Positions 3,851 to 25,746 of a DNA stretch of 26,229 nucleotides are shown in pieces. This stretch comes from Scedosporium boydii (taxonomy: Eukaryota > Ascomycota > Sordariomycetes > Microascales > Microascaceae), in contig NJFT01000357.1 of NCBI GenBank assembly GCA_002221725.1, positions 1 to 26,229 on the forward strand. Direction: 5' to 3'. How positions within the stretch are numbered: the stretch's first letter is position 1; each line of letters starts with the position of its first letter. A program made the translations under genes and the position numbers. The notes beneath the pieces were generated by a model. It made no database searches. It saw nothing but the letters and a program-made list of their open reading frames with translations, and was not told the DNA's origin.

Positions 3851-5800
3851 TCAAGTGTCAACCACAAACATGCCGGCAATGCTGGCCGACGTCAAAGTGG
3901 CAAACACACCCGAGATCAACGCCGATACAGCAACCTGCGTGACGGTCCCTGTGCGCCCGGGGGCCAGCTGTGACAAAGCCCCCATCTGCACTCCGACGGC
4001 GCTGATGTTGCCGAAGCCGCAGAGGGCGTACATGGCGATGAGGCGTGAGCGCGGTGATAGCGGTGCGTAGGCGGCATTTTGTGTCAATTCGGCGTACTGT
4101 CATCGATGGTTCGATCTGTTAGCTTCGTCGGCGAGACTCGAGATATAGAATTAGATATAGAAAAAAGAGAATAACAGAAAGAGACTGCAATGTATCAGTC
4201 AAAGGTATCCGCTGACAGCTACAAACTCATTGGTGACGACTTTGATCCCAATTAACTGGGCGACTTTGAGAAGATCGCCGTTCCTTTCAACGCCCAGCAG
4301 AAACGCAATAGGATAGAATATATACCCGACGATGAGCTGGACACTGAGGTCGTCGATATTGAGATAGCTGCCCCACCAAGAAAGAAGGCCGTTCGTCAAG
4401 GCGAGGAGGGCAAGGATGCAGAGGACACTGGCAACGACCATGCCGGCAATCTTGATACCCGTCCATGATCCCTTGGCAACGGCGTGGAGCGAGTTGAACG
4501 CCTTGCCTTCTTCGTCCTCCGGAACTCTAATACGACTAACCCCTTTCGTTAGAGGGTCTTCGGTCTCAGGGTAGCGAAGCTTCGAAATCGTAATGGCAGC
4601 CGGAATGCTCATGACGCACGAAGACACGAGCGCCAAAGGATCAATCCCGAGACCAATGTACGCCGAGAGAACGCTCCCAGCAATAGTCGCAAAGCCCGAC
4701 GTCATGACCTGATGCATCTCCGCCGCCGTAAGAAGCGGCAAAAATGCCTTTATCAAGACCGCGGCCTCTCCCTGACCCAGGAACGGGGACGCCGCGGCTG
4801 CCACAGCTTCGGCGCCCGATATTCCCATGAGATAGTAGAACACAGCGGCGAATTTGCCGACGAGCCATTGGATCCAGCCCCAGTGGTGGAGGAGCTGAAT
4901 GAAGGATACGAAGAAAATCATGGGTGGGAGGACGACGATGAGGAACCAGCCTGAGGAGACGGCTGAGGCGCTTGTAAGGAAGGTGGTGGCTTCCCCGGAG
5001 AAGGCGAGGAGGCTTTTAGCTAGGAAGCCGATGAAGTTGAAAATATCGTACTATGCGAGAAGTGTCAGCAATAAATTCGTTAAGAAGTGAATGTGGGCAA
5101 TTATTGGGTTTACGGGGCGGTCATACTCCGGCTTTCGTTCGAAGGACAAAGAGCCCGAGCAGGAACTGACTCAAAATTCCCGTGAGAACAGCCCGCCAAT
5201 TTATCTTTTTGCGATTCCTCGACGTTACCCAGAACATAGTCAGGAAGACAGCCAAACCGAATAAGCTTACGGCCCGGTCAGCGCGAGTGTTGCTCGGCGT
5301 CTCTTCGGTGCCAAATGTGCCCGCCAGGACGACTGCTAGAGTAAGAAATGCGAGGAAAGCCGATCTGTAGCGAGGCTGAATAGAATGAATGGCGGAAGAG
5401 ATCTTCCGAGTTGGGAGCAGCGGAAGAACATTTTGTGCCAGGTTCAAGGGAAAAATCAGGGTGAAGATCCTGATAGAGAGGCCAAGCCAGACTAGGAATG
5501 GGATTAGCCATCCGAGATCATGGCGATGAAGGACAAGACCTGCAATCCACCAGCTGTAGCACATGGAGTATTAGTGAATGTGAGATCCGGTAGAGGGAGT
5601 TGAGACGTATGGAGGGATGTAACCCACCCTGTCATGACCACCCACACGAGGACATAAATGACAGTGGAAAGCGGAGGCCATCGGCGGCGGCGGAGTTGTT
5701 CTCGTCCGGTTCCATCGTCCGTTTGTGCCTCTTCCAACGCCGGTGGAACATCCACCAACTCTCCGTCCTTGGGAGTCTTATCATGAGTGGGATCCATCAT
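3851..5800 (-). CDS. Concentrative nucleoside transporter (CNT family)
   Basis: Model: complement(join(3851..4096, 4217..5050, 5127..5553, 5628..5800)), 559 aa, all junctions in phase. CNT proteins are cation-coupled symporters that import nucleosides across the plasma membrane. The polar N-terminal tail of about 40 residues is followed by many membrane segments. Family hallmarks appear in order: the GYDIFNFIG region, the pore region GQGEAAVLIKAF followed by GFATIAGSVLSAYIG, the FLLGVERNGDLLK segment, the NEFVAY motif, and the C-terminal YALCGFGNISAVGVQMG block. NEFVAY is restored exactly by splicing out 4097-4216, which supports that acceptor although its donor (GTCAGC) is unusual. The donor of the first intron is GTGGGT. 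The start is the first of two adjacent ATGs at 5800. It lies 290 bp downstream of, and co-oriented with, the RdRP-helicase gene. Length is normal for fungal CNTs. Confidence 0.88.
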
Positions 5801-6090: not shown

Positions 6091-9000
6091 CTACGGCCCC
6101 TGTTGGCCGTCTTCTACTTCAATCACTACGTGGGTAAGGCTATCGTGAAGACGCTTCCACATCTCGGCACTCTCAGGATCCGACGTCCCCTCAGTCAACG
6201 TCCCTCTATGCCCAATGACGATCAGCCCGGCCTTCGCCCGCGTCAACGCAACGTTCATTCTCCTCAAGTCTTTCAGAAAGCCAATCTCCCGATGATCATT
6301 ACATCGTACCGTCACGAAGACGACAATATCCGCCTCACGACCCTGGAAGCCGTCGATGCTGGAGACCTCGACCCCAGAGAATCCAGATGTAAGCCGCTTT
6401 AAGAGGTCCGCCTGGCGCGTGTAGGGCGTCAGTACTGCAATGGATTGTGCATCTTTCGTCACATTCCGTCGTTGCCCTCCATCGTCGATCGTCGGAGAGG
6501 GAGAAGTGAGTAATTTGCAGACGTGGGCACAGAGTTGCGCTTGGCCTTCGTTTTCTTTTGATTTTTGGCCGGGTTTTTCTTTTGCTCCGCACTCGATGAA
6601 GATCATCCTCTTGTAGTCAATCATTGAATGTGGCGAGTCGCCGGATATAAATAGAGGAGAGGAAGCTTGGGGCCATGGAAACTCAGACGCAAACAAGGGT
6701 CGAGAAGCCGGGGAAATACCCGTTTTCAACCTGCCCTCGTAGAATTCATGTGAGCTAAACTCGCATATCTCAGGATGCATTCGGTACTGCGTATCCAACA
6801 TAAGTCGCTGGATCCCGCTGGTGAGGTGGTGGACGTCATCTTGAGTATCTTCGATCTCGTCTCGCGGCGTCCCTCGCTCCTTGTAGAGTCTCTCAAAGAG
6901 AGACACATCAAATCCAACAGCAACCGCATGCTGTTGAACCGTAGGCCTCAACTGGACGTGATCGCCTACCAGTATCGCCTTCCCACAGCCCTTTACCAGC
7001 GGGACCAGAGAAGCAGCTTCCGTCTGCTGAGAGGCTTCATCGATGATGATGATTTCAAAATTCTCCGAGCGTAAGAGCCCAACTCCTGCACCGATGCAGG
7101 TCGTGAATATCATCTTTGATTCTTTCACTTTTTTCCTTGCCTCGTTCATGGCCTTGTAGTCGGAGTGTACTTCTCTTTCAGCCATTGCGTCGCATGTATA
7201 GCCGCGAAGATCTTCTGCTACTTTGCGAACCTGTTCGATCCAATCGTATTAGCATCTATCCAGAGATCTCAAGAAATATTGCCGTTGTTGTTGTTGTTGT
7301 TGAGCCTACCTCGGTGGAGACACGCAATGGAAGTCCGCGTAAGCCACCTGTGGGTGATCGCCCCTTCATACGTTGAATGTATCTCCGCATTGCGTTGTCT
7401 ACGGCGTTGTGTGTCGGGGCAGTCACAAGGATTCTTGCGTTCTTATGAGCTTCTTGCAGGGCACATATGGTTTCCACGATTGTTTCCGTTTTCCCCGTCC
7501 CAGGCGGCCTCCAGAGACACATCAGTGAATGCCCAAGAGCGGCTTGAATGGCAGCGTTTTGGCTGTCATTCAATTTCTCTAAAGGGTTCCATCCATTTCC
7601 AAGGTCGACATCTAGATCGAGACCACTAGACGGCATGCCTAGAATGGAAGATGCCACCTGACAACACTGCTCCCGTTCGGTAGCAAACTGAAGCACAGCG
7701 TCAAAAGTTGTCTTCGTCGTCACAAAGGGACCGCAGTCCTCAAGATCCCAAGAACATTCTTGGAAGAAGGGAGGGAGAGGATGGAAGCACTGGAACCTCG
7801 CGAGTCCTTGCTCCGAATGTGTAACCAAGGCATCAATCCCAACTCTTTTCCCAACTAAGACGTTAGTTGGCAAGCTTGATGCTGTAAAATGAACGTGGGA
7901 GGAACGCTCTGGCGTTCCGCCGGGAGCATCAATGCGAAACGTCACTTCGACAATGGGATATCCATCTTCTTCCTTGTCAGTCGGCCGCAGTTGCAGATAT
8001 CTCCTCGGCTTTTTCGTGGGTTCAGATGCCTCTCCAACGTGATCTAAGGCAATAGCAATCATGTTCTTGACAAAATGATGCGTGACTTCCGGAGCAGCTG
8101 AGAGCACGCGCTCGCTCTCGGGCTCAAGGCAGGCAAGGAGGAGATCCATGACTAGTTCTACCGAGCGAACCGTCAACGAGGCTAACTTCACGAGCTCGGC
8201 GAACTCTCTCATCAGCATCATTCCGTCCGGGACCCTTGCGAGCATCGCTTTGAAAGGTTCGACCACAAATTCGCTCGCGTCGTTTGCGGCCAATATGAAT
8301 GCTCGAAGGATCACCGGAAAATATGCCCTCATAGCAGTTGCCAACTCTTCAGGATACTCGTCGTAGTTGGAAAAGCGTCCGAAACAGATTGCCAGAAATG
8401 AAGCTTTCCGCAAGAAGCCAACCATGGCATCGAGCGTCAGGATCGGGTCGCAGCGAACAAGATGGAGGTTCGCTAGCAAGTGGTCGAAGACGCGAAGCAA
8501 AGTTGACTTGTCATCCAGCTGCGAAAGGGAGTTGAAAACGAGCAAGAAGTCGTCAACTCCTTCCAAGTCTTGCACAACCGAGACGTTATGATGCTTCAAT
8601 ATTTGAACCAGAAACTTCGGGGGGTTGTTCGAGGGCGACAGGATTTCATGCAGTTTCGGTATTGTGTAATCCTTGGCGGTCTCTTGGACCAGAGGCATCC
8701 TCTCGCCGGTCGAGATGTATTCCAGCCAAAGATCAAGGCTTTGCATGGACTTGACGTCTCTGTTGCTGATTATGTAGATTTCCTAGGATGAGTCCACACA
8801 TCATCAGTCTCTCCGCCTCGGGCACTGGACATCGAGGTGCTATATACGGAGTTGCCATGGCTCACCGCTGCAGAAACCTTTGACCTATTTACTCTGCCGA
8901 CATGCCTCTGGAGGCCCTTGCTAAACTTATCCAATGCAATACTTGCACGTATCTCGAAATTAATCCCCGCATCGATAGTTGCTTGTTTCGCCCGTCTCCT

Positions 9001-11845
9001 GTCACCAGCGTCAGCAATGTTCCGATACTCGCTATCGTTCGATCCGGGCCGCGAGATAAAGATCCACGAATTAGCCCGAGCGTTCTCAAACAACTGAAAA
9101 ATGTTCTCATCGCTGTAGAGGCGGTACGTCATCTTTGTGGGTAACGACAGTCGGCTCTGCCTCTCGCGACCCTGGGAGTGCGGAAATGCAAAGAGTCGGA
9201 CTTTATCGTCCACGACGCAGTCCTGGGCACGGTCAATTTTCTGGGGGACATAGATGGCAAGAGTGAGCCTTTCGTCAGGCCGAAACACGATGAGTTTGCG
9301 GTGGAATAGTTCGAGGTATTTGGTCGCCGCATTCAGGAAGGTCGCCAATCGATCTCCCCGTCCAGAATCGTATACCCGTTTCCATCGCACTCTTGGAATG
9401 TCAAGCTGGTATTGACTAAGCTCGCTTTCGGTAAGTAGATTCGAGGAGCATAAGGCGTTCATGATGAGGCTTGGTGAGCTGATAGAAGGCGGAAGGCGAC
9501 AGATGACCCATGCCTTCTCTTCCGCGGTGAGGGCGTTAAAATCAAATAAATGAAGCAGTTCCTCGATGGAGCCCTCATTTCGCTGACACCACCGAAGTGC
9601 GAGTTTGAACATCTCAAACTCTGACATGGCGATATTGTCATGGGCCAAAAGCAGTTCCACCGCATCGGGCTCATACCCATCCCAGTCCTGGTCCTGTGCT
9701 GCTGCTTGGCTATGCTGGCGTATCGACTCTTTAGCTCGGCTATGGAGCTCATCAAGGATGAATCGGGGTGCATCCGGTGGTGGATTCGGCGGGGTCTTTA
9801 GCCTTTCCGGGATCTTGATTCGATTCCCGTCGACGCACTGAGAGAACAGTCGATTGAGCTCCTGGCATTCGGGACTCATTGGCCCGATTGCCCTGGCCCA
9901 ATCGAGGTAGAGGTTCTTGACTTGGCCGAGAGACGCATTGGTATACTTTGCAAAATAGACTAGGCGGTCGTCGTCTGTGATGGGCTTGAAGCGTAATGGC
10001 TCGCGGACGCCGGGGTACAGAGCGGGCTCGGAGAGCTTTGGGGGGATCAGGTCCATGTCCCAACAAACAAAGACTATTGTCCCGCGCATCGTCAGCACTA
10101 AAGTTGATAAACCGGGGTCACAGGCCCAGCTGTTAAATCTTCGCCCGAGGGCCGCCGAGGCACGCCGCCGAGGGAAGCCTGCAGTGCTCTCGCCCGTTGA
10201 GGGAACCCACTGAGGAGAAGCTCAGGCGGGTGAAGTGGCCACAGAGCAACTTACATTGGTCTCCATCAAGATCACCTCCAGACATCATGTCGGCAGCAGG
10301 TCTCCTGCCCCGCGTTGGAAAGACGATACAGTCCACCAAGTGAGCCAACTCGGGAACCTCCACAGCCCTAAACTTTTGCCAATCTCCCGGATGAAGGCAA
10401 GGATTTCGAATGACGGAGACTTCCGTATTCTTGAGGGCGTATGGAATGCCGTTGCCTTCCATCGTGACCTTGACAGCGCACTCTCCTTCCTTGAGGATGT
10501 TCCAAGCATCACAGACTCCGAACAGCAAGCGGGACTTCCGTACAAAGATGCGGCATTTCTGCTCTTCCCTCTTGTTTAGCATCTTTCCGAATTCGGCATT
10601 GACCAACTTCTTGATCTGGCTCTGCGCCGACTCGACTCCTTCCATGAGCACCTTCTCTGCTAGCTCGGGCTTGTTTATGTATGATAGGAAGCAGAAAGCG
10701 GCGCGAAAGTCGGTATGGGCGGAGGCGAGAAGTTTGAAATGTTCATCTTGCTTTCGCAGGAGGATTGATCGATCGATGCCGACGGCTTCTAAGAGTATGA
10801 TACCCTCGTCGTTGAGGAAACCGTACGTGTAGGGCTGACGATTTAGAATTAGCAAGACATTCAATGATGGAAAGATATAATCAAGTTAAAAAAAAAATAA
10901 ATAAATAAAAAATAAAAATAAAAAAATAGAAATAAATAAAGATGAAGAAAACGTGGATGTACCACGCTGAATCGTCAATACCTTGGAGTAATCGACAGCA
11001 GCAAAGGAGTCGTCATTCCCGCCACTGAATTTCTTCATCGATTTCCTCAATCTAAGCCAAGTCTTTCCCCTTGCCATCCGAGGGTCAACGGTAACCACGC
11101 CCTTGTACCCGCGATACCGTATTTGAAAAGCCGAAGGCGTGTACCGCGTGTCTCTGAAGACTATCCTAATCCTCCTCGCCAGGTCTCGGGCAAAGCCGGG
11201 GGAAATCAATCCGCATCCGTCTGTAAAGACGTAATCCGGGCTCTCAACGTCGGCAATGTCTTCGACCCGATCGTAAGGCACGGTTGTCGCGACTTGCGCA
11301 GCCGAAAATAGCAGGCCAATCCTTTTCGCCTTCTTCGCGACCGTCTTCATCTTGCTAAAGTCGCCCAGCGCCTCGACGATTCGGGACACTTCATCCTTGG
11401 ATCCAGCGAAGAGGAAGCAGGACCGGGACTTTAGCTGGCTGTTGCTGTGTCCGTAAAAGTTGTAATGGACACCCTGAAGGGATATTCCCTCTCGAAGAAA
11501 GCGCGTGACGTAGGCGGTGCATTCTGACCATATTGAGAGCTGGAGTTGGCCTTCGGCGCGAATAACTTCGTCGGATTGTCGGGTTTTCAATGGGCGGAAT
11601 TGGTCGATTGACACGAGAACGAAGCGGTCGAGAGGATGGGACTTGAGGGCACGATTGATTGGGATTTTCTCGAGCGTGAGGACCATAGAGTGTCGACGTT
11701 TCTGAGCATCTATTCGTATGGACACCTTTTTAACCCGCCCCATTTCGTTTAGTTTTTGGGGCCGCGGGAGGCCAGGAACTTGGAATTTCCATTCTGCGTC
11801 GTCAAGGCTGATCACAGACTTCAAGATGTAACTCTGTCCAGACAT
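6091..11845 (-). CDS. RNA-dependent RNA polymerase fused to Upf1-like SF1 helicase
   Basis: Model: complement(join(6091..7230, 7310..8782, 8866..10073, 10255..10834, 10982..11845)), about 1754 aa. Residues 1-615 are a cellular (QDE-1/SAD-1/Rdp1-type) RdRP, which makes dsRNA in RNA silencing. Visible blocks are YVFTDGCGLISPGFA (about 205), SAFQIRYRGYKGVVTVDP (about 238), LFGVCDAWNILKEGE (about 392), NPCLHPGD (about 431) and catalytic SGGDLDGD with Asp 476/478/480. Residues about 617-678 resemble a BACK helical domain. Residues about 1280-1754 hold a full SF1 helicase: Walker A PPGTGKTET (1310-1318), TAPTHNAVDN, DEAS (1439-1442), GDHVQLRP (1464), QYRMHPE (1523), IDGFQGRE and RRMNVALTRAK (about 1698). 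The 83-nt intron 8783-8865 (GTGAGC...CCTAG) joins the two halves in phase; without it the polymerase frame reaches a stop at 8770. The helicase family matches Hrr1/SAD-3-like silencing helicases. The start at 11845 is preferred over the in-frame 11983. Confidence 0.87.
10887..10940. repeat. A-rich low-complexity tract inside the first RdRP-helicase intron
   Basis: This stretch is almost only A with scattered T and G on the plus strand, so T-rich in the transcript. It lies inside the 147-nt first intron (10835-10981; donor GTATTG, acceptor GTCAG). It makes this intron longer and less standard than the others in the gene. Splicing it joins DYSK to PYTYGFLN, a junction that fits the conserved RdRP sequence. 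Confidence 0.7.
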
Positions 11846-12379
11846 GCTGCTGCTCCTGGGAGAGTGGTAATTTTGGCACAAAGAGCGGGAGTGATGCTGG
11901 AGAGAAAGGACAACAGGATTCCGACTACTCCAGGCGCAATCTTCTCGTCCCCTTGGGCAAAGCAAGGCGAGGTACAAGTACATGAAGTAACCCAGGTGGA
12001 AGAGATGAAGCTCATGCGCTTAGGCAAATCAACTCATCCGAATCCTCCATGTTTTCCAATACGTATTCCGGATCAGGTCAGACGCAGGAAGCTGACGGTT
12101 GAGTGGGTTGCACGACAGGCGCTCTGGACCCCAAGATGGCATCATGAAAATTGACTGAGCCGGTGGTATGGGCGGGGGTAAAAGTCCGCATTCTTGATGG
12201 GAGAGGGTTGGCCTGCCCCATATGCAAAAGGTGCGGAGTGCCCCAGTCTGTCAACCTAGCCTGTCTGCCACCTCATTCACTCCACTGCTAAGTGTTCTCC
12301 ACGTCGGTCTCATTGCCGAGGAGTGCGAGAGCAACAACAAAAAAGTACCGGAAAATTCGCGTCACACATCATATCATTA
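11846..12379. promoter_or_regulatory. Shared divergent upstream region (RdRP-helicase / P-loop NTPase)
   Basis: These 534 bp separate the start of the minus-strand RdRP-helicase from the plus-strand P-loop NTPase, so both promoters must lie here. No clear TATA box was found. Open frames inside it (for example 11821-12027 minus) have no recognisable content and are regarded as chance. If the RdRP has an additional 5' exon, it would be in this stretch. Confidence 0.45.
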
Positions 12380-13066
12380 ATGCCTACCAACGCCAACATT
12401 CCCAGTGTGTATATTACTGGCGCCCAATGCACTGGCAAGAGCACTCTTGTGAGGGAACTCAAAGTAGCCTTCCAGGACATCTCCCAGCAACTTAAAATCG
12501 ACGAGCCGGCCGTCATCTCAGAAGTGGCGAGGACCGTCCTCGCAGAGCATCCCATTGCAACAGAAGACATCCGCGCATCGCCAGCTAGGAGCCTGGAACT
12601 TCAGACCTTGATTCTAGACGCGCAAGTTGCCGCCGAAAGGAACGCCCTCTGCCGGAGCGCTTGGTTCATCTCCGACAGGTCGGGAATCGACCCCATCGTC
12701 TACGCGAGGAGGTATGCCGGCCAAGAGTCCTCGGCCATGATGATGGAGTCTCCGGCGTGGCTAGAGTCGAGGAGTAGAATGGAGCAATCCTTGATAGTTG
12801 TTTGCGAGGCTGGTGTAGACTGGTTGGAAGATGACGGTGTTAGGCTGATGCCGCAGAGTTTGGACGATTGGATGGAGTTTCATCACTTGTTCTGCTCGAT
12901 ACTGGACGAGGCGGGTCTGTATTTCTTCGTCATCCCTCGCGAGGTGAAGAGCATAACCGAGAGAGTTCAGCTTGTCTTGTCAAAGTGGCAGCTGCTTGTG
13001 GATGAGCGCTTGGGCAGGAAGGAAGAAGACAAGAACTTACTCATGAATGGCCTCAATTATGCGTAA
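12380..13066 (+). CDS. P-loop NTPase/kinase of the AAA_28 (NadR-like) type
   Basis: A single-exon frame of 228 aa. Visible features: a beta strand plus Walker A, VYITGAQCTGKST (P-loop G14-T22); ISEVARTVL (about 46-54), the E-x-AR block typical of NadR-like kinases; and FISDRSGIDPIVYARRY (about 97-112), a Walker B-like strand followed by a D-x-S-x-x-D block. The C-terminal half is helical, with a conserved-looking SILDEAGLYFFVIP segment. This family binds ATP and probably phosphorylates a small ligand; the substrate cannot be told from sequence. The start is the ATG at 12380, because the frame upstream begins only with GTG and includes untranslated-looking sequence. Length is normal for the family. 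Divergently transcribed from the RdRP-helicase gene. Confidence 0.78.
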   Translation: MPTNANIPSVYITGAQCTGKSTLVRELKVAFQDISQQLKIDEPAVISEVARTVLAEHPIATEDIRASPARSLELQTLILDAQVAAERNALCRSAWFISDRSGIDPIVYARRYAGQESSAMMMESPAWLESRSRMEQSLIVVCEAGVDWLEDDGVRLMPQSLDDWMEFHHLFCSILDEAGLYFFVIPREVKSITERVQLVLSKWQLLVDERLGRKEEDKNLLMNGLNYA

Positions 13067-16949: not shown

Positions 16950-18665
16950 TCACTCCTCATCCTCCGCCGGTACATCGTCCTCGTAATCTTCCTCCGGCTC
17001 GTCATCGATGCCAGCATCCTGATACTGCTGGTATTCGGAGATGAGATCGTTCATGTTCGATTCGGCCTCGGTGAATTCCATCTCATCCATGCCCTCCCCT
17101 GTGTACCAGTGAAGGAATGCCTTACGCCGGAACATGAGAGTGAACTGTTCACCCACGCGCTTAAAAAGTTCCTGGATAGCAGTCGAGTTCCCGACGAAGG
17201 TGGACGACATTTTTAGACCACGGGGAGGAATCGAGCAGAGGGCTGTTTGCACATTGTTCGGAATCCACTCTGCAAAGTATGTAGAATTCTTTGTTTGAAT
17301 GCTTCTCATCTGGTCTTCAATCTCTTTCATGGAGACTTTGCCGCGGCTAGAAATGTTTTAGCACAGGTTATAGCTAAACGAGAGAAATTACTTACAATAT
17401 AGCGGAACAGGTTAGGTAACGGCCGTTTCGAAAATCAGATGCTGCCATGATATTCTTTGGGTCAAACATTTGTTGGGTGAGTTGTGATACGCCGATAGAA
17501 TGGAATGCCTTGGCCCCACGACCAGTGAGGGGAGCAAATCCGACCATGAAAAAGTGAAGGCGAGGGAATGGGACCATATTAACGGCGAGCTTCCGAAGAT
17601 CCGAGTTGAGCTGGCCTGGGAAACGGAGGCAAGTCGTAACCCCAGACATAACAGCCGACACCAGGTGATTAAGATCGCCATAAGACGGGCTTGGGAGCTT
17701 GAGAGTTGTCATACAGATGTCGTAGAGAGCCTCGTTATCGATACAGAACGTCTCATCCGAGTTCTCGACTAGCTGATGTACCGACAAGGTAGCGTTGTAA
17801 GGCTCGACAACAACCTCGGATACTTTCGGCGAGGGTAGGACTGAAAAAGTCGCCATCATTCGATCCGGGAATTCCTCACGGATTTTGGAGATAAGCAGCG
17901 TGCCCATACCAGAGCCAGTGCCACCGCCAATCGAATGGGTGATCTGAAATCCCTGTAGGGAATCACAGCCCTCTGCCTCACGGCGGATGACATCTAAGAC
18001 TTCATCGACCAGCTCAGCGCCTTCAGTATAATGGCCCTTGGCCCAGTTGTTCCCAGCACCCGATTGGCCGATAATGAAGTTGTCTGGGCGGAAGAGTTGG
18101 CCCAGGGGCCCTGAGCGAACGGCATCCATCGTTCCAGGCTCTAGGTCCACGAGGACAGCGCGGGGGACGTATTTGTTTCCGGATGCCTATTTGTTTGCGT
18201 TAGCAGGCCATGGTCGGCAAGAGTGTCTGCAAGTTACCCCAACCTCATTGAAGTAGACGTTCACACGGTCAATCTGGAGCTCCGACGTTCCGTTGTACCT
18301 AACGAAAGGCGATGAGTGGTGTTGGCCGTGGCTCGAGGGCTCTGGATATCAACTCACACGCCACTGCTGTCGAGGCCATGTTCGCTTGAAATGTTCTGCC
18401 TTTCGGAGAGTGAGCGTTATATCGTCGAGTTCTAGGATAGAAAGGACGTACCAGAAGGCCGTGCCAATCTGATTACCCTATAGAAGATATCAGACGAGCT
18501 GACAGCCAGTGTTGACGACAGTTACGTACGCATTGGCCAGTCTGAACATGGACCTATCCGATGTGATAAGTAGACAGTCAGACAGGCATCCTAATATTGC
18601 GCCACAGATTTTGGACGATCTGGACTCTGCCAGTGACAGGCATGCGAACTCACGATCTCGCGCAT
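16950..18665 (-). CDS. Beta-tubulin (divergent copy)
   Basis: Model: complement(join(16950..17346, 17396..18186, 18244..18298, 18358..18399, 18452..18477, 18530..18553, 18654..18665)), 448 aa, matching the usual beta-tubulin length. Beta-tubulin binds GTP and polymerises with alpha-tubulin into microtubules. Seen in the sequence: N terminus [12 protein letters not shown] (12-nt first exon), the GTP-binding signature [27 protein letters not shown], the [12 protein letters not shown] splice junction and an acidic C-terminal tail. Tiny 5' exons and introns of 49-100 nt are typical of fungal beta-tubulin genes. Residues linked to benzimidazole sensitivity (His6, Phe167, Glu198, Phe200) all look wild-type. 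Many usually invariant sites differ from the common fungal form, for example [18 protein letters not shown] and [17 protein letters not shown], which suggests the secondary paralogue rather than the housekeeping gene. Confidence 0.93.
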
Positions 18666-20565: not shown

Positions 20566-22332
20566 ATGGGATTCACCGACCTCCCTTTGGAGACGATATC
20601 TACTATTATCCAGCATACTATACATATCGCTGGCATCCATAAGACTGTCAGGCTGCGGCAAGTATGCAGTACGTATCACGTATCACCATTCCCTTTGCGG
20701 TTTCCTGGCCTGGGACTGACGTTTTCCGTCTCCTGTCTCTTGTGATAAGAGTTATTTGACCAGGAAATACTCTCTTTGATTGAAAGAGAAAATCTTCTCC
20801 CATCAGCTTTGGGCCACTGGAGGCTGGAGGACAACCCATCCTCTGCAGTTCTCTTCCTAGCGAGATTCCTCTTAGGACGCCCACACACAGCTGGAAATCA
20901 TGAGTGGAACGCCAATGCATCCACTTTCCTAAATCAGATCCTCGACACTTTGGGCATCACATCCAGCGAGGACCGCTTAGTCGCCCTCCAGACACTCTGC
21001 GGGCAAATTGTCTGGGCCGAGGATTGGCTAAGTCCCACAGGCCTACCTTTGAATGTCCTTGAGAAGCTTGATCCAAAATCCAGGTATAAGACAAAGCAGA
21101 CTTGGGCCACTCATCTCTTGCCTGCTGCCATCCTCCTCGGGAAGTCAGAGATATACGGTCCTCTTTTACCCTTTCTAGATGCACGAAAAGACAAGGAAGA
21201 GAAACTGGATAGTAGTGACGGTAATGACGATGATGTCAATCAAATCGTATCGGACAAGAGCTACGAATTCGGCACTCCTGTCTATGCGGCCATTGTGAGC
21301 AATCAGAAAAAGCTCATGAGGAAACTTATCGTGCGAGGCAAATCTTCCCTGTGGGACACCGCCCACGACGTGCTCCTGGGTGCTGTCCGAGTAGAAGAGA
21401 CCTCGATGCTGGAATACCTTCTTTCAAAAGGCCCACCCCGAAAACGGACGGACCTCACTATCCACAAAGCAATTATCAAAGCCGCCATTCTGAACCGACC
21501 CGTTCATGCCCGTATGTTGATCGACCACCTAACGAAGAAAAGACACTCGAGATCCAGGTTGAAATGGGCTATGCAGTGGGCCCTTCACTACGCGTGCATC
21601 CATGGCAACCGTGAGCTCGCGGCGCTCTGTACCAGCCATGACGCCAACCCTGCTCAAACGCATTGGCTCCACCCCGAGACCGCAGCTGAGTTGGCAGGTC
21701 AAGAATATTTTCAGGTTGACTGCGAAGTCGTCCCTGCACCAATTTGCATTGCGGCATGGGCAGGTGACATGGAGCTGCTACAATGGCTTATGACTTATAA
21801 GGTGCATCTCGAGCCGGCTATGAGTGGCGCCATTTTAGCCGATCGTGTCGATGTAATCAAGTTTGTCAGTGGATTTACTTCCTACGGTAGCGAAGCCAGA
21901 GGAGCCTGGCTCCACCATCTCTACGACGCGGCCCGGGTGGGCGCCCACCGAGTCTTCCGCTACCTTGTGTTTGAGGCTAAGGTCCTCGACCTGGCCGCCG
22001 AGTACGAGGCCCCGGATGGGTACATTATAGACATGATGAACGTCGTTTGCAAATACGGATACGTCGAAATCTTTGATGCCATGGTTGAGGCCGGTGTTCC
22101 AGTTGATCCTCCCGTCGAGCGCCACAACTCCGGTGGGACCCCGATCTTGGCTGCCCATAGCGCTGATTCTCCCGAGCTTGAAGCTATTAGGAAGAGACTC
22201 AAGAGTATGGGCGTGGCCCTTCCAGGCATAAGCCAATCCTCCTCCAGGGTATTTACGCCCGGTACACCACCGGGGCAGTTGAAGGCTAATATGCCCCGCT
22301 CGGCGATCATAGAGTATGTATCACCAAATTAA
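20566..22332 (+). CDS. F-box-like / ankyrin-repeat protein
   Basis: Model: join(20566..20668, 20750..22332), 561 aa; intron GTACGT...ATAAG, 81 nt, in phase. The first exon encodes MGFTDLPLETISTIIQHTI, a short F-box-like N terminus, and splicing gives LRQVCKLFDQEIL, the usual continuation of such domains. The second exon carries degenerate ankyrin-type repeats, for example TPVYAAIVSNQKKLMRKLI (about 180), HYACIHGNRELAALC (about 298), APICIAAWAGDMELLQWLM (about 348), VVCKYGYVEIFDAMVEAG (about 478) and a GGTPILAAH block (about 507). Ankyrin repeats mediate protein binding; an F-box-like N terminus would suggest recruitment of targets to a ubiquitin ligase, but this is inference. The end is a TAA at 22330-22332. 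The N-terminal exon is short, so its assignment is less certain than the ankyrin part. Confidence 0.75.
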
Positions 22333-23701: not shown

Positions 23702-24825
23702 TCACACCGCCCGCCTTCCCTCCCTTTGCTCAGCAACATACGCTACCCGAACCTGCTCCTCCAAGTCCCTCATAGAATCAGACCACACCTGCCTCGGAAG
23801 CTGCCCACCGACGATCTGCGCGCTGGAGAGAGACAGAGGCGGGGAAATTCGCTCTCCTTGCGAAGACGACGGGGGCTTTTCGGTGAGCTGAGCTGCGTCG
23901 GAGGCTGCGAGGCGTTTCTTGCGAAAGTACCAGATTCCAGTAAATATCAGCGCGAAGCCTGTTAGGTAGAAGGATTTCGTTAGAATGAAGAACACGAAGA
24001 AAAAATGGATGCTTAAAATAAAGCTTTACCTGCGACACCGGTCACGATCCCGGCTGTTTGGCCGGCTGCATTGCTTTGGGTGGCTGCGTTCGCATCACTA
24101 GCTTGGGCATCGGCAGGAACGGTAGCGCTAGGGTCCGTTGGTAGAGGAGTAGTGGCAGATATGCCGAGTAGGTCGGCCGGGGGACGGCCGATGTTGGAAA
24201 AGGTGACCATTGAAGGGAGGAGAGCGACGAGGTTATTGTCGCCGTCGTTGGAGATGATTGGGATTCCGGTGATTGCGGAGTTCTGAGTTTCGGAAGTTAT
24301 CGAGGCAGCTGCTGAAGTAGGAGGGGGTGGTGATAGAAGTGAGGACGGGACCGTTGTTAAAGTGAGTAGAGGTTGTCCAGTCGAGCTGGGCGCGGCGACG
24401 GTGCTTGTGGATGTTTCTTCCTCAGAGTCGGAGGAATCCGAGGACGAGGAAGAGTCTTCTCCATTGGCAGCCTCCGCTTCGGAACCAGATGAATCTTGCT
24501 CCTCGCCATCTGCTTCTACTTCCTCACCTCCGCCCTCGTCCTCACCATCTTCCTCATCCTCCCCCTCTTCTTCATCCTCGTCCTCAACTTGGAGAGGGTT
24601 TATTGATTCCTCATCATCGTCCTCTTCCTCGCAGTCCTCACCGTCTAGCCCGCCTTCGTCATCTGCGTCCTCTCCCTCCTCGCGCAGTCGCAGAATCTGA
24701 TCCTGGTACCTCGGCGGCCTGCTGAAACTTCTTTTCCGTCGATCTTTTTCGGAAAGTAAATCTGCCCGCCGCCGATAGCGAGCTACTTTTTCATAGTCGG
24801 GTGATCGCAGCGCCATCGTAGACAT
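23702..24825 (-). CDS. Acidic Ser-rich single-pass membrane protein
   Basis: Model: complement(join(23702..23958, 24030..24825)), 350 aa; intron 23959-24029 (GTAAAG...AACAG, 71 nt) in phase. The N-terminal 50 residues are basic (VARYRRRADLLSEKDRRKR). Residues about 55-150 are a very acidic low-complexity region, with Glu/Asp runs then Ser/Glu (SSSSSDSSDSEEE). A Thr/Ser/Pro-rich segment follows. The intron falls inside the single membrane helix, so splicing creates it: TAGIVTGVAG plus FALIFTGIWYF, then RKKR and a cytosolic-type tail of about 75 residues. The layout suggests a type of plug or anchor protein in a fungal membrane, but no family was recognised. The start at 24825 is chosen because the frame upstream to 25050 has no protein-like composition; the next ATG at 24816 is an alternative. 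Confidence 0.65.
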
Positions 24826-25746
24826 GTAGAAGATGATAGCAATTAAGTGGATGAGGGTGTAAACCACGGAGAATTGGATGTAATTAGAAGAAAAGAGCTT
24901 CTGGGGCAATAATTTTAGGATCGGGTCGATTACTCTCTTCTCAGAATTTGATATTAAGGCATCCCCTTTACCCCTTTTATTCACTTGTAGAGAAAGAAAC
25001 AAAGATCGCGAGGGGAAGATAGATAACTTAAAACGGGCCAGTCGGATCAAATAGGGCCCGTGATGGGACGGTGCACGTTTTGTTTCGAAGATCTCGGCAG
25101 GGGCAGCTCGTTCGTTTCATGTTCCAGGTTGTTGCCCGACCTCTAGAGAAAGATTGTTCCCGATTGGTTTTCGGAACTTTTGGGGCATTTCTATTATTAG
25201 TTCGAGGCCGAAAGAGGGAAGAGATCGTGTGCTGCTTTTTTTCCCTTTCCTTTCCCCTTCTTCCTTTGGTGTTTCTTTGCCCCCCTGTTATCAGTTTGGA
25301 TTTGGCTTTATTGTTTACTAGAGCTGCAGGTCCTCGGTTACTAGAAATGAATGCATGGGAATACGAAAATTGCCAACCCGAGATAAGAACCCAAAATTCG
25401 GATCTCCGTAACCTTGTCAGAGATCGCCCGTCCATCACTAGTGATCTATCTAGGGGACTGAAACTCGCCCGTACCATGGCAAGGTTGTTATGTGGGTTGC
25501 CGCGTTACGAGGCCTATCAACCTCTACCAAGCGATATCGACACACATCGAGCCGCGGTGCTAGCGCCTCAGAAGCACAAACAAGTAGTTACTACATCCAT
25601 TTTCACTTTTTTGTTATCTACTCGTACACCGGAACTCGCTAGTGATGTCCGCAGCCGATCCTGACGACAGACAAGCGTGTCTAATTTACAAACTCCCTTC
25701 ACCCGCAAAACCAAAAAAAAAAAAACTAGTTCCCATCTCCAACACC
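24826..25746. other. Intergenic region
   Basis: About 920 bp between the acidic membrane protein start and the end of the next gene on the same strand. Open frames here (25071-25664 plus, 25028-25477 minus) overlap on opposite strands and show no motif or plausible composition. No RNA gene was recognised. Confidence 0.4.

Follow-up and report, generated by a model that had tools for sequence, protein, structure and literature searches.

The 26,229-nucleotide window analysed here (positions 1 to 26,229 of the forward strand of contig NJFT01000357.1, Scedosporium boydii assembly GCA_002221725.1) carries a minus-strand gene at 6091..11845 in which, on sequence evidence, an RNA-dependent RNA polymerase (RdRP) and a UPF1-like superfamily 1 (SF1) helicase are near certain to be a single polypeptide. 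By sequence comparison the gene is an orthologue of the class typified by FgRdRP5 of Fusarium graminearum, and an ordinary new copy of it. We consider it reasonably probable that in this orthologue an RDR2-type polymerase is followed by a middle part resembling TLDc, then by a helical spacer and finally by an SF1 helicase of UPF1/IGHMBP2 type, and that the protein makes double-stranded RNA (dsRNA) for RNA interference (RNAi). The coding sequence of 5265 nt specifies 1754 residues and a stop, has no internal stops, and is interrupted by introns of 147, 181, 83 and 79 nt, all four bounded by GT...AG. Recomputed junctions and translation reproduce the coordinates, the five exons in phase and the 1754 residues given by an earlier reading of the same DNA (the original prediction). 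The features of the gene are as follows.

6091..11845, minus strand: whole RdRP-helicase fusion gene, 5 exons, 1754 residues, with end-to-end relatives
11845-10982, minus strand: exon 1, residues 1-288, start of the RdRP
10834-10255, minus strand: exon 2, residues 289-481, ending just past the catalytic DLDGD (10273-10259)
10073-8866, minus strand: exon 3, residues 482-884, the remaining RdRP, a doubtful BACK stretch and most of the predicted TLDc-like domain
8782-7310, minus strand: exon 4, residues 885-1375, the last TLDc-like strand, a helical region, a barrel and the start of RecA1
7230-6091, minus strand: exon 5, residues 1376-1754 and stop, the remaining helicase core
8783..8865, minus strand: intron 3, 83 nt, GTGAGC...CTAG, phase 0, position kept in relatives
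7231..7309, minus strand: intron 4, 79 nt, near which 38 of 142 metagenome-only relatives end
9733..11662, minus strand: Pfam RdRP match (PF05183), residues 62-595, 397.5 bits, the span including introns 1 and 2
9559..9762, minus strand: weak BACK match, residues 586-653
8756..9456, minus strand: predicted TLDc-like domain covering roughly residues 688-893, located with the help of a model of relative P0119
6091..8098, minus strand: UPF1/IGHMBP2-type helicase unit covering roughly residues 1113-1750, located with the help of a model of relative P0123
7508..7510, minus strand: codon of Arg1309, first Walker A position, Gly in all 38 other aligned relatives

The original prediction had placed the junction at intron 3 (8783-8865), whose splicing joins ...SKVSAA to EIYIISNRD; both the join and the conservation of the intron among relatives agree with it, and if left unspliced the frame adds 31 residues and then meets a stop at 8770. 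A search with the whole protein returned 1211 relatives. Among the best 120 of these 1211, 119 (all but P0050) align through residue 885 without a break. At least 95% of the fusion protein is covered by 99 of the 120, which are 41-67% identical to it, and the closest match among those listed shows 67% identity with the full length (100%) covered. The proposed search of fungi for the same two-domain order thus came out in favour of the fusion, and the claim of one RdRP plus UPF1-like SF1 helicase polypeptide is borne out by the open frame and by relatives matching end to end. The 39 rows of the family alignment fit closely at the splice points (288, 481, 884 and 1375); in eight rows a gap or extra residues fall right at a splice point, 288 in six of them and 884 and 1375 in one each. 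Just after the junction E885, Y887, I889, N891 and D893 are invariant in 39/39; this conservation and the 41-67% identities are far beyond chance.

The metagenome-only relatives (n=142) were apparently called exon by exon, so that intron positions are visible in them. Residue 885 is passed unbroken (from 850 or earlier to 920 or later) in 22 of them, and 68 start at 876-916 (43 at Met897 and 8 exactly at 885). A further 19 have their ends at 870-900, 11 of them at 884 precisely; intron 2 is where another 25 stop, and the remaining 8 lie elsewhere. In each of the 11 ending at 884 the next residue is V, the reading expected from GT, and in each of the 8 starting at 885 the residue before is Q or K, the reading expected from CAG or AAG. 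Because these ends and starts carry splice-like flanks, intron 3 is, by comparison of relatives, a real, conserved and old intron at a fixed place, one apparently absent from some relatives.

In the polymerase half, the catalytic DLDGD that was originally reported at 476-480 does start at residue 476, and it is invariant in 39/39 aligned sequences. When alignment profiles were compared with solved structures, this half was nearest to plant RDR2 (325 bits), which is without a helicase and whose aligned part starts at RDR2 residue 276, whereas QDE-1 reached only 94 bits. RdRP matches occur at five places in the 42.9 Mb genome of S. boydii: the fusion gene, L001 (which matches RDR2), L002 (beside L001 in the tree), L003 (which matches QDE-1) and L004 (sister to L003), so that separate polymerases of QDE-1 type are present. 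The fusions group together in the RdRP tree at 76/97, more weakly than in the helicase tree.

In the helicase half Pfam detects AAA_11 and AAA_12, with the AAA_12 match running to residue 1717, and this half bears the motifs GTGKT (1312), DEAS (1439), RMHP (1525), DGFQG (1668) and ALTRA (1703). Motifs Ia, II, III, IV, V and VI are identical or almost identical to the consensus of the family, but the SF1 set originally claimed as complete is not fully canonical, motif I having Arg1309 in place of Gly. Walker A thus reads RPPGTGKT here and GPPGTGKT in 218 of 228 collected proteins, while the other 10, some of them fragments, have no match to the pattern.

By the same profile comparison the helicase half is nearest to UPF1 (283 bits), followed by senataxin (231), SMUBP-2 (227), SEN1 (227), DNA2 (189) and ZNFX1 (148). 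In the fusion, the RdRP occupies the N-terminal place when compared with UPF1/NAM7 and IGHMBP2 (SMUBP-2), and the UPF2-binding zinc domain UPF1_Zn_bind (PF09416) is absent from its Pfam matches and present in the genome's own UPF1 (L035). Separate UPF1, SEN1, DNA2, Aquarius and ZNFX1-like helicases were found in the genome by Pfam or PDB matches; the labels SMUBP2 (L032) and MOV10-like (L033) are our own and not assigned by a tool. A tree of 22 helicase cores gathers the 11 fusion sequences into a single group (94/93) but does not resolve the order of UPF1, SEN1, SMUBP2 and DNA2; several of its branches are long and its bootstrap had not settled. Topology tests did not reject grouping the fusion with UPF1 (p 0.134), SMUBP2 (p 0.14), SEN1 (p 0.061) or the wider ZNFX1 set of L030, L031 and L039 (p 0.094). 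Grouping with the ZNFX1-like L030 alone was rejected (p 5e-6), as was grouping with the MOV10-like L033 (p 0.028).

ZNFX1 and Hrr1/SAD-3 are SF1 helicases that act with RdRPs as separate proteins in other systems, and we take Hrr1 and SAD-3 to be fungal kin of ZNFX1. The original prediction had likened the fusion to Hrr1 and SAD-3, a comparison that the sequence does not back, with UPF1 nearest (the ZNFX1 score being about half as high) and a ZNFX1-like helicase encoded separately in the genome, even though the tree is compatible with the wider ZNFX1 set. That helicase (L030, 578-5288) scores 298 bits to ZNFX1, has a CCCH zinc finger match in the preceding exon, and is a candidate Hrr1/SAD-3 orthologue.

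Between the two halves, the predicted TLDc-like domain spans the polymerase-helicase junction, and intron 3 interrupts it immediately ahead of the final strand. In the structure predicted for a relative this part takes the TLDc fold, with 7-12% identity to the known TLDc proteins OXR1, NCOA7, mEAK7 and TBC1D24 and no Pfam match over the cut-off. BACK (PF07707) scores 21.9 bits against a cut-off of 20.9 in the fusion protein, and among other members it was weakly matched in 1/9 of one set and in 0/25 of another. The genome's own OXR1-like TLDc protein lies in two pieces, L040 and L041, with 48 and 47 bits to PF07534. Searches of an open-licence library listed no paper linking TLDc with an RdRP, and the modelled TLDc-like middle, unmentioned in those portions of the FgRdRP5 literature that were examined, looks like the less ordinary part of the gene.

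The organism names among the best 120 of 1211 relatives are ones we take to belong to Sordariomycetes, Leotiomycetes, Dothideomycetes, Eurotiomycetes, Lecanoromycetes and Pezizomycetes. With residues 1-884 as the query, 12 further proteins were listed whose names are presumably those of basidiomycetes (Botryobasidium, Serpula, Mycena, Cerioporus and others). In 11 of the 12, one continuous alignment leads from the polymerase to at least residue 1312, at 33-35% identity, those of P0316 and P0327 extending to residues 1467 and 1491, respectively; the twelfth, P0311, aligns to residue 1101. Several of the basidiomycete models end inside Walker A, which resembles an unspliced intron, and a complete basidiomycete helicase was not seen in this search, full-length models exceeding the protein length that it could take in. 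From these alignments the joined protein is probably older than the split of Ascomycota and Basidiomycota, though the fusion may instead have been transferred between the two phyla. As one old and widespread protein, the fusion is open to study in convenient fungi.

Several points weigh against the reading of the gene as an RDR2-type polymerase, TLDc-like middle and UPF1/IGHMBP2-type motor acting in RNAi. Arg1309 departs from all 38 aligned relatives and could reflect a weakened motor (ATPase), a variant of the strain or a mistake in the assembly. The TLDc assignment comes mainly from the predicted structure of a relative: PF07534 was weak in 5/25 members (best E 0.011; P0245 reached 14.6 bits against a cut-off of 24.5), matched 0/9 in a separate set, and had no match in the S. 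boydii fusion protein at E 0.001, and hhalign of the middle against one TLDc sequence, the genome's own OXR1-like protein, gave no match. In the excerpted results of PMC4515635, F. graminearum mutants in RNAi components, RdRP1-5 included, were without altered phenotype under that study's conditions. A role of the fusion in RNAi is likely, and its motifs point to polymerase and motor activities. The protein would copy single-stranded RNA into dsRNA that supplies Dicer, within an RNAi pathway operating during sexual development, and the TLDc-like middle would serve as a scaffold or docking site.

A bolder version, which we put forward tentatively and hold to be somewhat doubtful, is that polymerase and helicase are joined through an unrecognised BACK/TLDc-like module that could dock on partner complexes such as the V-ATPase, as in other proteins, that splicing of intron 3 could decide between a complete multi-module enzyme and a bare RdRP, and that this architecture is older than the split of Ascomycota and Basidiomycota.

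For the motor, the original prediction proposed a helicase that gives the polymerase processivity on structured or protein-bound templates, read here as a motor running ahead, and the covalent joining of the two in relatives from many fungi is consistent with it. UPF1/IGHMBP2-type motors move 5' to 3', whereas RdRPs travel along the template from 3' to 5'; because the two directions are opposed, running ahead on the same template strand is unlikely. More probably, the motor would strip proteins or structure from the RNA and carry the polymerase to the 3' end of the template, where copying starts, or it would track on the opposite strand of a duplex. With both activities in one protein, the direction of the motor relative to the polymerase becomes testable.

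Less probable again is one gene with two products, in which retention of intron 3 would yield a protein of some 915 residues with the RdRP alone, while splicing would yield the fusion. The conserved position of the intron would suit such a switch, as would the deposited models P0229, P0230 and P0247, which read into it; retention, however, would leave the predicted TLDc-like domain cut short of its final strand, and the 22 metagenome-only relatives with no break there argue that a switch is not universal. These three models and P0234 are deposited as RdRP-only and stop at or near residue 884, and all four are probably truncated fusions; some public gene models thus stop at intron 3 and mimic RdRP-only genes. 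Slightly less credible still is decay of the helicase, or of the entire gene, in this strain of S. boydii, as Arg1309 in Walker A might suggest, since 1754 codons remain open and the 67% identity to the nearest listed relative holds over the full length (the motif residues alone having been compared singly). Two adjacent genes merged by annotation, the RdRP stopping at 8770 and the helicase beginning at a Met, for example Met897 (the first Met past the junction and the start of 43 metagenome-only relatives), would fit the same four deposited models but is highly improbable given the unbroken relatives, the intron signature at 884 and 885, and a predicted TLDc-like domain that spans the junction.

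At 4199-5570 the minus strand has a Na+-dependent nucleoside transporter gene, whose Nucleos_tra2 and Gate domains fall in two open frames, and at 12260-13066 the plus strand has an open reading frame with an AAA_28 ATPase domain, divergent from the fusion gene. Farther along the window are a minus-strand tubulin gene (16950-18186), in which 17392-18186 holds the GTPase domain and some of the C-terminal one and the open frame 16950-17357, judged by eye, looks like its end; a plus-strand open reading frame with ankyrin repeats (20749-22332); and a minus-strand open reading frame with long acidic and serine-rich runs (24013-25116) and no Pfam match at E 0.001.

Whether the fusion was already catalogued had been left open by the original prediction; it is catalogued in Fusarium and widespread in fungi, and is not new. 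Excerpts of a 2015 study describe FgRdRP5 (FGSG_09076) of F. graminearum as an RdRP domain with C-terminal DEAD-like helicase and AAA domains, placed nearer a plant RdRP-like protein (PMC4515635). The sections seen of a 2024 study give its domain limits and a separate branch, expression about tenfold higher in sporulation and the sexual stage, and reduced ascospore discharge upon deletion, and in their discussion NAM7 figures only as a predicted partner in a network and UPF1 only as the homologue of NAM7 (PMC11237814). FgRdRp5 appears under a SAD-1 heading in the relevant part of a 2019 paper (PMC6764512). The F. fujikuroi protein FFUJ_03638 is, like the fusion, an RdRP with ATPase domains, listed in 2024 with no functional work in the portion available (PMC11130915). 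FgRdRP5 (P0019) has the same order of RdRP, DEAD-like and AAA domains as the S. boydii protein and is 57% identical to it over 100% of the latter's length, with the Walker A Gly where S. boydii has Arg.
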